This document shows, piece after piece, positions 2,680 to 9,120 of a stretch of DNA of 64,000 nucleotides (its first letter is position 1; each line of letters opens with the position of its first letter). The notes below the pieces were generated by a model that saw only the letters and a list, made by a program, of their open reading frames with translations, searched no databases and was not told where the DNA came from. The DNA is from an uncultured Pseudomonadota bacterium (GTDB taxonomy: Bacteria; Pseudomonadota; Gammaproteobacteria; Burkholderiales; Burkholderiaceae_C), in the NCBI GenBank assembly GCA_945952465.1, contig CAMFIB010000001.1, positions 1,550,001-1,614,000 on the forward strand, given 5' to 3'. Both the position numbers and the translations under genes were made by a program.

Positions 2680-2719
2680 GCAGAGCCGGCCGGGGCATCC
2701 CGGGCCGGCTCTGCTTTTT
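2680..2719 (+). terminator. Rho-independent terminator after the OmpW gene
   Basis: A perfect 12-bp stem (GCAGAGCCGGCC at 2680-2691, GGCCGGCTCTGC at 2703-2714) is followed by TTTTT. Confidence 0.9.
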
Positions 2720-2774
2720 GGGGCGGGGCACCGCGTGGCTACACTGGCGTTTTCCCCGTGCAGCCTCTTTCTCC

Positions 2775-5429
2775 GTGACCGGCCAACCCCCTTCCGTCTC
2801 CGCGCCCGGCGTGCGCTCGCCCGAGGGCCACACGCCGATGATGCAGCAGTACCTCGGCCTCAAGGCCGGGCATCCGGCCACGCTGCTGTTCTACCGGATG
2901 GGCGACTTCTACGAGCTGTTCTGGGAAGACGCCGAGAAGGCCTCGCGGCTGCTCGACATCACGCTCACCCGGCGCGGCCAGTCGGCCGGCGAGCCTGTGA
3001 CGATGTGCGGCGTGCCCTTCCATGCGCTGGAGAGCTACCTCGGCAAGCTCATCCGGCTGGGTGAATCGGTGGCGATCTGCGAGCAGGTCGGCGAGGTGGG
3101 CGGCAAGGGGCCCGTGGAGCGCAAGGTGGTGCGGGTGGTGACGCCCGGCACCGTGACCGACAGCGAATTGCTGGCCGACAAGGCCGAGGCGGTGTTGCTG
3201 GCCGTGCACCAGGGGCCGCGCGCGGCGCGGGCCGACGGCTGCGGCCTGGCCTGGTTCAGCCTGACCCAGGGCGTGGTGCACCTGGCCGAATGCGCGGCCG
3301 ACGACGTGGCGGCGTGGGTGTCCCGCATCGGCCCCAGCGAACTGCTGTACAGCGCGGGCGGCACCGATGCCTTCGAGGCGCTGCTGAAAGGCCTGCGCGG
3401 CGCCACCGGCCCCACCCTCACACCGCGCCCCGCCTGGCAGTTCGACGCCACGCTGGGCCAGCGCAAGCTGACCGAATCGCTGGGCGCGGCCAGCCTGGCC
3501 GGCTGGGGCGCCGACACGCTGGCACAGGCCCACGCCGCAGCCAGCGCGCTGGTGGCCTTTGCCGAGCACACGCAGGGCCGCGCGCTGACGCATGTGGCGG
3601 GCATCCGCGTGGTGCGGCCGAATGAGCTGATCGACCTGCCGCTGACCACCCGGCGCAATCTGGAGCTGGTGCAGACGCTGCGCGGCGAGGCATCGCCGAC
3701 GGTGCTCTCCCTGCTCGACACCTGCATGACCGGCATGGGCAGCCGCGCGCTGCGCCAGTGGCTGCTGAGCCCCAAACGCGAGCGGCTGGAGGCGGTGCAG
3801 CGGCTGGAAGCCATCGACGCGCTGCGCGGCGGCGACGGCCACGGCCCCTGGCGCGCCCTGCGCGAACGGCTCAAGGGCTGCGGTGACGTGGAGCGCATCA
3901 CGGCCCGCGTGGCGCTGCGCCAGGTGCGGCCGCGCGAACTCGTCGCGCTCGGCTTGACGCTACACAAATGTGAGCAACTTATCGAGCATTCACACCGACT
4001 TCCGGCACTTTTGACTCAGATTTCAGCCGATCTGGCACCACCACCCGGCGTGGCGGCGCTGCTGGCCCGCGCGCTGCTGGAAGAACCGGCGGCGCTGGTG
4101 CGCGACGGCGGTGTGATCGCCACCGGCTTCGACGCCGAACTGGACGAGCTGCGTGGCATTGCCGAGAACTGCGACGCCTTTCTGCTGGCGCTGGAAACAC
4201 GCGAGAAGGCGCGCACCGGCATCGCCAACCTGCGGGTGCAGTTCAACCGGGTGCACGGCTTCTTCATCGAAGTCACCACCGGCCAGCTCGACAAGGTGCC
4301 CGACGACTACCGCCGCCGCCAGACGATGAAGAACGCCGAGCGTTTCATCACGCCGGAACTGAAGGCCTTCGAAGACAAGGCGCTGTCGGCGCAAGACCGC
4401 GCGCTGGCGCGGGAAAAGTGGCTGTACGAGCAGTTGCTCGACGCGCTGCAGCCCTTCGTGCCGCCGCTGGCCCGGCTGGCCGCCGCGCTGGCCTCGCTCG
4501 ACGCGCTGGCCGCGCTGGCCGAGCGTTCGCTCACGCTCGATTGGTGCGCGCCGCAGTTCGTGCGCGAGCCCTGCATCGAGATCGAGCGGGGCCGCCACCC
4601 GGTGGTGGAAGCCCGGCTGGCCGAGACCGGCGGCGGCGCGTTCATTGCCAACGACACGCGGCTCGGTCCCCGGCAGCGCATGCAGGTCATCACCGGCCCC
4701 AACATGGGCGGCAAATCGACCTACATGCGGCAGGTGGCACTGATCGTGCTTCTGGCCAGCATGGGCTCTTATGTACCCGCCTCGGCCTGCCGGCTCGGCC
4801 CGGTCGACGCCATCCACACCCGCATCGGCGCCGCCGACGACCTGGCCAACGCGCAGTCGACCTTCATGCTGGAAATGACCGAGGCCGCGCAGATCCTGCA
4901 CGGCGCCACATCGCAGTCGCTCGTGCTGATGGACGAAATCGGCCGCGGCACCTCCACCTTCGACGGCCTGGCGCTGGCCAGCGGCATCGCCGCGCAGTTG
5001 CACGACAAGGCCCAGGCCTTCACGCTGTTCGCCACCCACTATTTCGAGCTGACCGAATTCCCGGCGCGCCACCATGCGGCGGTGAACGTGCACGTGAGCG
5101 CCACCGAAGCGGGGCACGACATCGTGTTCCTGCACGAGATCCAGCCCGGGCCGGCAAACCGCAGCTACGGCATACAGGTGGCGCGGCTGGCCGGCATGCC
5201 GGCGGCGGTGGTCAACCATGCGCGCCACACGCTGGCCGCGCTGGAAGGCCAGCAGGCCGCCGCAAGCGCGCAGGTCGACCTGTTCGCCGCACCGGCCGAC
5301 ACCGCGGCGCCCGAGCCCCACGCCCTAGAATCGGCGCTGGCCCGCATTCAGCCCGACAGCCTGACGCCGCGCGACGCGCTGGACGCGCTGTATGCGCTGA
5401 AGAAAATCGCCGCCCAACACCAGCACTGA
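2775..5429 (+). CDS. mutS: DNA mismatch repair ATPase MutS
   Basis: MutS recognises mispairs and starts methyl-directed repair with MutL. GTG at 2775 is chosen because it gives 884 residues and the family N terminus ending in HTPMMQQYL; an ATG at 2838 would cut into that block. The mismatch-probing Phe-x-Glu motif is F45-Y-E47. The connector and clamp follow, with the clamp signature [12 protein letters not shown] near 495-506. The ATPase has Walker A GPNMGGKS at 641-648 and Walker [17 protein letters not shown] near 715-730. Residues 395-417, a variable stretch, are encoded by a copy of the R1 repeat (3959-4024) with AT-rich codons. The next gene starts 35 bases downstream on the same strand, so co-transcription is likely. 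Confidence 0.98.
3959..4024 (+). repeat. R1 repeat copy inside mutS
   Basis: AT-rich island beginning GCTACACAAAT and holding the core ACCGACTTCCGGC, then TTTTGACTCAGATTT. It aligns over its whole length with the intergenic copy at 25393-25459 and is translated in frame as residues 395-417 of MutS. Confidence 0.6.
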
Positions 5430-5464: not shown

Positions 5465-6298
5465 ATGACCTACTGCGTCGCCATCAAACTCAACGCCGGC
5501 CTGGTGTTCCTGTCGGACTCGCGCACCAACGCGGGGCTGGACAACATCAGCACCTTCCGCAAGATGATCGTCTACGAAAAGGCCGACGACCGCTTCATGG
5601 TGCTGCTGTCGGCCGGCAACCTCAGCATCTCGCAATCGGTGCGCGAAATCCTGCAGATCGAGCAGTTGAAGGAGCGCGAGGACGACGGCGAGGAAGCCAT
5701 CACGATCTGGAACGCCAAGAGCATGTTCGACGCCGCCCGCGTGCTCGGGAATGCGGTGCGCCATGTGTACGACCGCGACGCCGCCGCGCTGAGCAACGCC
5801 GGTGTGGAGTTCAATGTGTCGCTGATCTTCGGCGGGCAGATCAAGGGCGAGAAGATGCGGCTCTTCCAGGTGTATTCGGCCGGCAACTTCATCGAAGCCA
5901 CGCCCGAAACGCCGTATTTCCAGGTCGGCGAGTCCAAGTACGGCAAGCCGGTGCTCGACCGCGTCATCACGCCCGACACCCCGCTCGACGAAGCCGCCAA
6001 ATGCGCGCTGGTGTCGATGGACTCCACCATGAAATCCAACCTGTCGGTCGGCCTGCCGCTCGACCTGGTGGTCTACGAAGCCAACAGCTTCGCCACAGAC
6101 CGCATCGCCTGCATCGACCAGGACAACCCCTACTTCCAGATGCTGCACAGCACCTGGGGCCAGAAGCTGCGCGCGGTGTTCGACGAGCTGGAAGACCCGG
6201 TCTGGGACGGCAGCCGCACCGACACCCCGCTCAAGCTCACCGCCTCCCGGCACAAGGCGCTGAAGAAAATTTCAGACCCCGGCGAAAAGCTGATCTGA
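5465..6298 (+). CDS. Anbu-type proteasome-like peptidase
   Basis: The 277-residue protein begins Met-Thr-Tyr-Cys-Val-Ala, so removal of Met exposes Thr1, the Ntn-hydrolase nucleophile. The stretch LVFLSDSRTNAG follows, as in proteasome beta, HslV and Anbu subunits. The long C-terminal part (SVGLPLDLVVYEANSF, then DNPYFQMLHSTWGQ) is what marks Anbu (ancestral beta subunit) rather than HslV. Anbu proteins assemble into helical or ring-like complexes; their substrates are poorly known. In many genomes Anbu lies with alpha-E, transglutaminase-like and ATP-grasp genes. None of those is beside it here: mutS is 35 bases upstream and a LexA-box operon follows. Family call is firm, function is open. 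Confidence 0.88.
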   Translation: MTYCVAIKLNAGLVFLSDSRTNAGLDNISTFRKMIVYEKADDRFMVLLSAGNLSISQSVREILQIEQLKEREDDGEEAITIWNAKSMFDAARVLGNAVRHVYDRDAAALSNAGVEFNVSLIFGGQIKGEKMRLFQVYSAGNFIEATPETPYFQVGESKYGKPVLDRVITPDTPLDEAAKCALVSMDSTMKSNLSVGLPLDLVVYEANSFATDRIACIDQDNPYFQMLHSTWGQKLRAVFDELEDPVWDGSRTDTPLKLTASRHKALKKISDPGEKLI

Positions 6299-6334: not shown

Positions 6335-6364
6335 CTGGCGACCGTTGCGCATTAACTGTATATT
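6335..6364 (+). promoter_or_regulatory. Possible sigma-70 promoter of the radical SAM-UdgX operon
   Basis: A TATATT hexamer at 6359-6364 resembles a -10 box; a weak -35 (CTGGCG, 6335-6340) lies 18 bases upstream. Transcription would start near 6371, the first base of the GTG start codon, giving a leaderless mRNA. The -10 sits inside the LexA box, as expected for LexA repression. Inferred from position only. Confidence 0.4.
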
Positions 6365-6371
6365 TGTACAG
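6356..6371. promoter_or_regulatory. LexA (SOS) box
   Basis: CTGTATATTTGTACAG is an exact match to the CTG-T-N8-ACAG consensus bound by LexA in beta- and gammaproteobacteria. Its last G is the first base of the GTG start codon of the radical SAM gene. No other copy of this 16-base pattern was noticed in the window. Confidence 0.8.
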
Positions 6372-7633
6372 TGAATGTTCAGCGCAAACTCGCCATCCTC
6401 GCCGACGCCGCCAAGTACGACGCCTCCTGCGCGTCCAGCGGCACCACGCAGCGCGACTCGCTCGGCGGCAGCGGCATCGGCTCGACCGAAGGCTCGGGCA
6501 TCTGCCACAGCTATGCGCCCGACGGCCGCTGCATCTCGCTGCTGAAAATCCTGCTGACCAACTTCTGCCAGTACGACTGTCTGTACTGCGTCAACCGCGC
6601 CAGCAGCAACGTGCCGCGCGCCCGCTTCACGGTGGAAGAAGTGGTCAACCTCACGCTCGATTTCTACCGGCGCAACTGCATCGAGGGGTTGTTCCTCTCC
6701 AGCGGCATTGTCAAAAGCCCCGACCACACGATGGAGCTGGTGGTCGAGGTGGCGCGCCGGCTGCGCGAGGTGCATGACTTCCGCGGCTACATCCACCTCA
6801 AGACCATCCCCGACGCATCACCCGAATTGCTGGCCCAGGCCGGCCGCTACGCCGACCGGCTCAGCATCAACATCGAGCTGCCCACGCTGCAGGCACTCGA
6901 CGAATTGGCGCCTGAAAAAGACGGCGCGGCCATCCGCCGCTCGATGGCACGGCTGAAGACGCACATCGACGACGCCAAAGGCGAGGCGCACGACGCTGCC
7001 GCCAAGCCCGTCACCTCGCTGCCGCAAGCCGGCCCCAAACGCGCCCGTCCGCCCCGCTTCGCGCCGGCCGGCCCGAGCACGCAGATGATCGTCGGCGCCG
7101 ACGCGAGCGACGACCACACCATCCTCGGCACCAGCGCCCGGCTGTACGGCAGCTACGGCCTGCGCCGGGTGTATTACTCGGCCTTCAGCCCCATTCCGGA
7201 TTCGGCCGCAGCGCTGCCCCTCAAGGCCCCGCCGCTGATGCGCGAGCACAGGCTGTACCAGGCCGACTGGCTCATCCGTTTCTACGGCTACGAGGCCGAC
7301 GAGATCGTGCCGCCTGAGCACAGCGGCATGCTGGCGCTCGACGTCGATCCCAAGCTGGCCTGGGCGCTGGCCCACCGCGAACGTTTTCCGGTCGACCTCA
7401 ACACCGCGCCGCGCGCGCTGCTGCTGCGGGTGCCGGGGCTGGGCACCACGGCAGTCGACCGGCTGCTGCGGTCGCGCGCGGTGCGCCGCATCCGCGGGGA
7501 AGATGTGAAGCGGCTGCGGGTGCCGCTGGCCAAGGTCATGCCCTTCGTGGTGGCCGACGGGCACCGGCCGCCACAGCAACCACGGGCGCTGGCGCCGCTG
7601 CGGCATCTGGCGGTGCAGGAGACGCTGTTTTGA
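6371..7633 (+). CDS. Putative DNA modification/repair radical SAM protein
   Basis: The 420-residue protein carries the radical SAM cluster motif C66-x3-C70-x2-C73 (CQYDCLYC) and the family N terminus KLAILADAAKYDASCASSG. It belongs to the radical SAM family that is regularly linked to a uracil-DNA-glycosylase-like gene, as here. The C-terminal region has helix-hairpin-helix-like sequence (NTAPRALLLRVPGLG), suggesting DNA contact. GTG at 6371 is the only start that preserves the family N terminus, and there is no Shine-Dalgarno sequence before it. The LexA box abuts it. The stop overlaps the next start by four bases (TTGA), so the two are translationally coupled. The chemical reaction is not known to me. 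Confidence 0.88.
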   Translation: MNVQRKLAILADAAKYDASCASSGTTQRDSLGGSGIGSTEGSGICHSYAPDGRCISLLKILLTNFCQYDCLYCVNRASSNVPRARFTVEEVVNLTLDFYRRNCIEGLFLSSGIVKSPDHTMELVVEVARRLREVHDFRGYIHLKTIPDASPELLAQAGRYADRLSINIELPTLQALDELAPEKDGAAIRRSMARLKTHIDDAKGEAHDAAAKPVTSLPQAGPKRARPPRFAPAGPSTQMIVGADASDDHTILGTSARLYGSYGLRRVYYSAFSPIPDSAAALPLKAPPLMREHRLYQADWLIRFYGYEADEIVPPEHSGMLALDVDPKLAWALAHRERFPVDLNTAPRALLLRVPGLGTTAVDRLLRSRAVRRIRGEDVKRLRVPLAKVMPFVVADGHRPPQQPRALAPLRHLAVQETLF

Positions 7634-9120
7634 GCGCGTCGCTGGCGCGGCGGGAGCCGGTCAGCGTGGTGCTGGCCGACGAAACCGACTTTGCGGGTTT
7701 CCGCCGCGCCGCCCGCGCGCTGGCCGCGCAGGGCGTGCCGCCTGAAGCGGTGATGTGGTTCACCGCCACCGACGCATGCAATGCGCTGTTCGCCACGCAG
7801 GCCTCCGTGTTCGCTGAGCCGGGCAAGACCGCCGCCGTCGCCGTGCCCGCCACTTTCGTCGCCCTGTGCGAAACCGTGGTGCAGCACGACGACCCGCAAC
7901 GCTTCGCGCTGCTGTACCGGCTGCTGTGGCGGCTGCAGCATGAGCCGTCGCTGCGCCACGACCCGCTCGACGCCGACGTGCTGCTGGCCCGCCAGATGGC
8001 CCGCGCGGTGCGGCGCGACCAGCACAAGACCACCGCCTTCGTGCGTTTCCGCCCGCTGAACGACGGCAGCGCCGGGCCGCTGCATGTGGCCTGGTTCGAA
8101 CCTTCGCACCACACGGTGGAGGCGGTCGCGCCCTTTTTCATGCGGCGCTTCGCCAACATCCGCTGGGCCATCCTCACGCCGCGCCGCAGCGTGCGTTGGG
8201 AGCCGGCCTCGGCGGCGCTGCCCGAAGGCCGGCTGGTGTTCGGCCCCGGCGCGCGCAAGGAAGACACGCCGTTGGCCGATGCCGGTGAGGCCCTCTGGCT
8301 CACCTACTACGCGAACATCTTCAACCCCGCGCGGCTCAAGCTGCGCATGATGGAAAAGGAGATGCCGCGCAAATACTGGCGCAACCTGCCCGAGGCCGAA
8401 CTGATCGCGCCGCTGGCGGCGGCCGCCACCGAACGCAGCGGCCGCATGGTGGCTGAAGCGCCGACCACGCCACGCCGCAAGGTCGTCACCCTCGCCCGCG
8501 CCCCAACGCCCAACGGGCCGGCGCAGACGCTGGAAGCGCTCAACGCCATGGCGCAACGCTGCCGCGAATGCCCGATCGGCGAGCACGCCACGCAGGCGGT
8601 GGTGGGCCAAGGGCCGCGCGAGCCGCTGCTGATGTTCGTCGGCGAACAACCGGGCGACCAGGAAGACCTGCGCGGCCAGCCTTTCGTCGGCCCCGCCGGC
8701 CAGTTGTTCGACCGCGCGCTGGCTGAACTGGGCGTGGCCCGCGACACGGTGTACGTGGCCAACGCGGTCAAGCACTTCAAATACGAGATGCGAGGCAAAC
8801 GCCGCATCCACAAGACCCCCGCCCAGCGCGAAGCCGCCGCCTGCGCCCACTGGCTGGAAGACGAGATCCGGCTCGTCAATCCCGCCGCATTGGTGGCGCT
8901 GGGCGCCACCGCCGCCCGCTCGCTGATGGGCGAGGCGGTGGCCGTGACCCGCGAGCGCGGCCAGTGGCAGCGGCGGGCCGACGGCCGGCCGGTGCTGGTC
9001 ACGCTGCACCCGTCGGCCCTGCTGCGCGCTGACCCTGCCGGTCATCAGCAGGCCTGGGCCGATTGGCTGGCCGATCTGCGCTGCGCGCTCGACCCGCCGA
9101 AGCTGTTGGTCCGCTCCTAA
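7630..9120 (+). CDS. DUF4130 domain fused to UdgX-type uracil-DNA glycosylase
   Basis: This 496-residue protein joins two parts. Residues about 1-275 form the DUF4130 region. Residues about 300-496 form a family-4-like uracil-DNA glycosylase with iron-sulfur Cys residues (C311-x2-C314 among them), motif A GEQPGDQEDL near 338 and HPSALLR near 460. The loop KRRIH (390-394) is the hallmark of UdgX, where the His (here His394) bonds covalently to the abasic site left after uracil removal and traps the enzyme on DNA. The start is TTG at 7630, overlapping the radical SAM stop. The role inferred is SOS-induced handling of uracil or a modified base with its partner. Confidence 0.9.
   Translation: MSASLARREPVSVVLADETDFAGFRRAARALAAQGVPPEAVMWFTATDACNALFATQASVFAEPGKTAAVAVPATFVALCETVVQHDDPQRFALLYRLLWRLQHEPSLRHDPLDADVLLARQMARAVRRDQHKTTAFVRFRPLNDGSAGPLHVAWFEPSHHTVEAVAPFFMRRFANIRWAILTPRRSVRWEPASAALPEGRLVFGPGARKEDTPLADAGEALWLTYYANIFNPARLKLRMMEKEMPRKYWRNLPEAELIAPLAAAATERSGRMVAEAPTTPRRKVVTLARAPTPNGPAQTLEALNAMAQRCRECPIGEHATQAVVGQGPREPLLMFVGEQPGDQEDLRGQPFVGPAGQLFDRALAELGVARDTVYVANAVKHFKYEMRGKRRIHKTPAQREAAACAHWLEDEIRLVNPAALVALGATAARSLMGEAVAVTRERGQWQRRADGRPVLVTLHPSALLRADPAGHQQAWADWLADLRCALDPPKLLVRS

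Follow-up and report, generated by a model that had tools for sequence, protein, structure and literature searches.

A LexA box, a radical SAM gene and a gene coding for DUF4130 fused to UdgX follow one another in a 64,000-nucleotide stretch, called here the window, of a Burkholderiales genome. The arrangement raises the question of which of these parts is controlled by the SOS response, and whether the pathway that they form is built on uracil, as was suggested when the locus was read from its letters alone. The features of the operon are collected in Table 1. The true start of the feature is the box, at 6356, and the start given earlier, 6335, was arbitrary. The TGA of the first gene and the TTG start of the second overlap by 4 bases, an arrangement that bears out, at the level of sequence, the translational coupling proposed in the sequence-only reading. 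Upstream of the operon, the window has an ORF at 5465-6298 that we take to be a lookalike of a bacterial proteasome-type (Anbu-like) protease, and a mutS-like ORF at 2718-5429, recognized from its translation and probably a coincidental neighbour.

Table 1. Features of the operon in window coordinates.
Feature	Position	Strand	Basis
LexA box CTGTATATTTGTACAG	6356..6371	+	exact CTGT-N8-ACAG match
Last G of the LexA box CTGTATATTTGTACAG, first base of the GTG start codon of the radical SAM gene	6371		
Radical SAM protein, 420 aa, TIGR03916 rSAM_link_UDG	6371..7633	+	NCBIfam
Fusion gene DUF4130-UdgX, 496 codons, TTG start	7630-9120	+	
DUF4130/TIGR03915 domain, residues 1-257 of the second protein	7630..8400	+	NCBIfam, Pfam
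UdgX domain, residues 258-496 of the second protein	8401..9120	+	TIGR03914

The predicted LexA operator and its conservation

The exact CTGT-N8-ACAG that the sequence-only reading placed ahead of the radical SAM gene was found there as CTGTATATTTGTACAG. The bare pattern occurs at 12 sites in the genome versus nine for a reversed control pattern and, since it is not rare, exact half-sites alone are weak proof. The whole 3.29-Mb genome was also searched with the full consensus CTGTATATATATACAG. Three sites were within 3 mismatches, CTGTATATTTGTACAG among them, versus none for the control. On the 20-base consensus CTGTATATTTGTACAG scored 16/20; the runner-up in the window reached 12, and 20 locally shuffled windows gave 14 at best. 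The other two near-consensus sites precede a PA0069-family radical SAM gene and imuA (NF033429), at positions 1501-1516 of both L008 and L012 from the same genome. The PA0069 family would be a second radical SAM family inside the predicted LexA regulon of this genome, whose lexA gene is itself preceded by the box CTGTATTTTTAACCAG. A simple scan of the locus, which is uninformative in a GC-rich genome, gave no sigma-70-like promoter. If the hexamer TATATT is read from the box as the -10 element, the transcript start would fall on the G shared by the box and the start codon, so that the operon mRNA may be leaderless.

The LexA recognition sequence differs between bacterial classes, and class-specific motifs therefore offer a natural control for the conservation of the operator. 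The alphaproteobacterial box was defined as GTTC-N7-GTTC or GAAC-N7-GAAC lying no more than 150 bases ahead of the radical SAM gene. It was present at 52 of the 56 named alphaproteobacterial loci, where the remaining sequence of those loci predicted 0.15. The exact CTGT-N8-ACAG was present at 11 of the 18 named Burkholderiales loci, where 0.02 were expected, and five more had one mismatch, of the CCAG type found at the lexA gene of this genome. An even sample of Pseudomonadota gave the alphaproteobacterial box at all 49 loci outside the window's class (taken as Alphaproteobacteria) and the exact CTGT-N8-ACAG at 10 of 14 loci in the window's order, Burkholderiales; in other Gammaproteobacteria the count was 6/15, or 11/15 when one mismatch was allowed. 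In the cross-controls, the alphaproteobacterial box was found at none of the 29 loci in the window's class, and outside it the CTGT box was found at 0/49 (exact) and 2/49 (one mismatch). The placement of the box on the GTG codon recurs at seven further Burkholderiales loci, with a degenerate left half-site at L039. Among the loci where no LexA box was recognized are six Xanthomonadales-like operon loci (L059, L065, L066, L099, L151 and L152) and two very AT-rich loci. Outside Pseudomonadota the evidence comes from the literature and from a few isolated loci; upstream boxes of the Gram-positive type with one mismatch, AAACATATGTTC and AAACAAATGTTC, occur in Acetoanaerobium (L146) and in a faecal contig (L148) and are no more than suggestive as SOS operators. 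Taken as operators, the boxes indicate that SOS control is conserved and that its motif tracks the LexA of the host. The direct LexA control predicted from the box at the outset is supported by the rank of the site in the genome, by the genes that share such sites there (imuA and the PA0069-family gene), by the box at lexA and by conservation: a host-type operator lies at the presumed promoter, and relatives keep one in whichever LexA motif belongs to the host.

Composition of the putative SOS-controlled unit

Protein families were counted over their cut-offs in 299 Pseudomonadota genomes, where the radical SAM family was present in 72, DUF4130 in 75 and UdgX in 70. DUF4130 accompanied the radical SAM family in 72/72 genomes (Fisher 3e-66), and the three extra DUF4130 genomes belong to one genus and include truncated copies. 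UdgX was present in 56 of the 72 (Fisher 1e-32), and in 14 genomes it occurred without the radical SAM family. DUF4130 adjoins the radical SAM gene at 162 of 165 loci, and of the three exceptions two have it about 3 kb away, with genes inserted between. About 3 kb separate the radical SAM gene from the DUF4130-UdgX gene at L202 and L203; the L202 insert, judged by eye, has genes for a repeat-rich periplasmic-looking protein and for cytochrome-like and hemerythrin-like proteins.

When the UdgX fusion is mapped on a radical SAM tree with 111 loci, at least eight changes are needed, and well-supported branches force six of them. A LexA box with at most one mismatch is retained in 15 of the 16 genomes that have the radical SAM and DUF4130 families without UdgX. 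The separate UdgX genes examined had no box within 320 bases, the remnant at L206 excepted. In this broken operon, the radical SAM gene was not found, the DUF4130 remnant has an in-frame TGA and UdgX is open, and an alphaproteobacterial LexA box persists upstream of the broken DUF4130. Because UdgX-less operons carry the box and separate UdgX genes do not within 320 bases, SOS control appears to follow the radical SAM-DUF4130 pair. By this evidence from gene content and operators, the SOS-induced unit is the pair, and UdgX is an accessory that was lost or gained at least six times. The idea that DUF4130 is the key partner thus gained support, as no radical SAM genome lacks it. The uracil-built pathway that had been put forward together with it did not, given that UdgX is missing from 16 of the 72 genomes and DUF4130 from none.

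Candidate activities and alternative explanations

The radical SAM protein matches TIGR03916, presumably the same family as COG4277, with 529.5 bits (curated cut-off, 343.5); in Pfam, Radical_SAM scored above its cut-off and HHH_3 below. The CX3CX2C motif at C66/C70/C73 is kept in 165/165 loci, and the cysteines C20/C45/C54, together with H46, in 164/165. The sole exception for these three cysteines is a Gemmatirosa protein (L147) that lacks all of them and also the neighbouring DUF4130. From this single exception, a second Fe-S cluster, suspected on C20/C45/C54, would be tied to the partnership; cluster and partner may have been lost together in L147. The AlphaFold model (pLDDT 86.9) is nearest to HydE, lipoyl synthase (LipA) and biotin synthase (BioB), with Z ~17, and has an HhH-like C-terminal segment near residues 341-369 with a weak likeness to segments of ComEA and RuvA. 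Spore photoproduct lyase (SPL) models gave no match among the NCBIfam and Pfam hits at E 0.01.

In the second protein, DUF4130 was recognized by TIGR03915 over residues 18-256 (203.6 bits, cut-off 112.25) and by PF13566 (E 6e-36, 124 versus 27 bits). Its model (pLDDT 89.6) matches the DHH superfamily over residues 5-216 with Z ~8: the values are 8.2 for PAP phosphatase, 8.1 for RecJ, 7.4 for archaeal RecJ-Cdc45 and 6 to 7 for Cdc45. With Z 8.2, the match to 8a8k has an rmsd of 4.6 over 185 aligned residues. The first 28 structure matches were all DHH or Cdc45 proteins, with no other family among them. The best Foldseek E was only 0.02, a profile comparison with RecJ gave nothing (hhalign probability <1%), and a search by sequence for solved structures gave a chance match only. 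With Z near 8, a DHH-like (RecJ/Cdc45) fold is a lead, not a result. The divergent members L143-L146, L148 and L183 have near the N-terminus a D-G-S-F-D-G-L-L-S-like stretch that recalls DHH motif I, which is also a lead. The UdgX domain matches TIGR03914 with 281.4 bits over residues 258-485 and has motif A (GEQPG, 338-342), the R-loop KRRIH (390-394, with His394) and motif B (HPSALLR, 460-466). All three motifs align with structures of Mycobacterium smegmatis UdgX (6ajo, E 1e-50), and KRRIH falls on the R-loop of the latter, as the sequence-only reading had it. These alignments support the identification as UdgX with the covalent-trap residues.

We lean slightly towards a LexA-repressed two-gene DNA-damage module in which the radical SAM protein and DUF4130 would repair a base lesion and UdgX would cap the AP site. 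The regulation and composition of this module are well supported by the comparisons described above, and its chemistry is a guess, with direct lesion repair as the best guess by analogy. After damage, RecA-stimulated self-cleavage of LexA would clear the operator, which shares a base with the start codon, and translational coupling would ensure that the radical SAM protein and DUF4130 are made together. Their strict co-occurrence and the HhH-like segment suggest an obligate pair acting on DNA, to which the HhH-like tail and DUF4130 would guide the enzyme, DUF4130 presenting or clamping the DNA. In the radical SAM protein, with a probable second Fe-S cluster on C20/C45/C54, the 5'-deoxyadenosyl radical would most likely reverse or rework a base lesion, by analogy with SPL. 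The fused UdgX would excise uracil and stay covalently on the AP site via His394, as a cap until later processing. Both the missing match to SPL models and the fold, nearest to HydE, BioB and LipA, count against direct repair, and the six Xanthomonadales-like operons with no recognized box count against the regulation. A bolder version, which we hold tentatively and consider doubtful, would make the module a new type of widespread SOS repair machine. It would combine a two-cluster radical SAM enzyme with a DNA-binding tail and a DNA-holding partner of RecJ/Cdc45 fold, UdgX being repeatedly added as a crosslinking cap, and would reverse a common base lesion.

It is unlikely that the radical SAM-DUF4130 pair adds base modifications to, or strips them from, intact or error-prone-copied DNA, with UdgX clearing mis-modified bases. 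Such a function agrees with the NCBI family name, 'DNA modification/repair', and is compatible with an optional glycosylase. It also agrees with PMC3765255, where DUF4130 is predicted to be a mutagenesis-related enzyme with links to UDGs and to radical SAM proteins like SplB, and possibly one that modifies thymines. However, widespread SOS control suits repair or tolerance better than constitutive modification. A modification for phage defence is further opposed by the finding that only two of 2.9 million viral contigs (IMG/VR) carry the module, and that PADLOC gave no match. A phage system was considered and rejected: besides these two IMG/VR contigs, the viral occurrences amounted to a handful of 'phage' records of faecal or plasmid-like character. 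The radical SAM gene is present in two records of 240 kb named Acinetobacter phage (CAKLQH020000003.1 and CAKLQF020000004.1); in both, the identity of the gene to the query equals that of an Acinetobacter plasmid, and they may be plasmids.

We also regard as improbable an excision system centred on uracil, in which UdgX would be the main actor on uracil or ribonucleotides that SOS polymerases incorporate, the task of the radical SAM protein being to resolve or release the UdgX-DNA crosslink. The intact UdgX residues fit this explanation, as does the co-occurrence of UdgX with the radical SAM gene in 56 of the 70 UdgX genomes, and a UDG-based excision system for SOS-polymerase misincorporation has been proposed (PMC8565304). 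It is weakened by the UdgX-less operons, 15 of 16 with their boxes, and by the separate UdgX genes that occur with neither the radical SAM gene nor a box within 320 bases. A constitutive operon with a box that is palindromic by chance is very improbable: the bare pattern is little commoner than its control and the scan gave no promoter, but relatives conserve the box in the same place and Alphaproteobacteria have the host-specific motif instead.

Comparison with known systems

For the LexA-repressed radical SAM-DUF4130 module, SOS control is not new, contrary to the sequence-only reading, since it is preceded by PMC3828012 and PMC8565304. The latter describes the COG1573-COG4277 operon of Bacteroidetes as SOS-regulated and as a putative UDG-based excision system, and cites (its references 7 and 65) SOS control of this operon in Verrucomicrobia and Alphaproteobacteria. 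The same two families are under LexA there and here, but the LexA motifs are others, and here the UDG is UdgX fused to DUF4130. The passages of PMC8565304 on the operon discuss neither UdgX chemistry nor DUF4130. CAC3343-CAC3344 of Clostridium acetobutylicum, for which LexA control was predicted (PMC3828012), likewise comprises a DNA modification/repair radical SAM gene and a gene with no assigned function; it differs in its Clostridial motif, and PMC3828012 does not identify the partner or mention UdgX. Desiccation raises the level of a radical SAM gene of the same annotation in Acinetobacter Tol 5 (PMC13130816).

The UdgX of M. smegmatis (6ajo, PMC10359453) shares the R-loop KRRIH, motif A GEQPG and motif B HPS..LR, but the crystallized protein is UdgX alone, whereas here the domain forms the C-terminal part of a fusion with DUF4130, encoded beside a radical SAM gene. 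PMC10359453 calls the cellular role of UdgX largely unknown, and neither its text nor that of PMC10776899 refers to SOS or operons. SPL and SplB-like proteins (COG1533) are also radical SAM proteins of SOS regulons with a CX3CX2C motif; the protein described here differs from them in three further invariant cysteines, an HhH-like C-terminus, an obligate DUF4130 partner and the lack of a match to SPL models. DUF4130 resembles RecJ, NrnA and Cdc45 of the DHH superfamily in its model (residues 5-216, Z ~8), but has no profile-profile support and a Foldseek E of 0.02.

As far as these sources show, three points drawn from the genome comparisons appear to be new: SOS control extends to Beta- and Gammaproteobacteria, where its motif changes; throughout the family, the UDG in the fusion is UdgX; and SOS control is dissociated from UdgX. 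The survey joins the UdgX and SOS literatures, and damage control goes in it with the radical SAM-DUF4130 pair, not with UdgX. The first place to look for the function is therefore the pair itself, in UdgX-less strains, and an old gap thereby becomes open to direct test.
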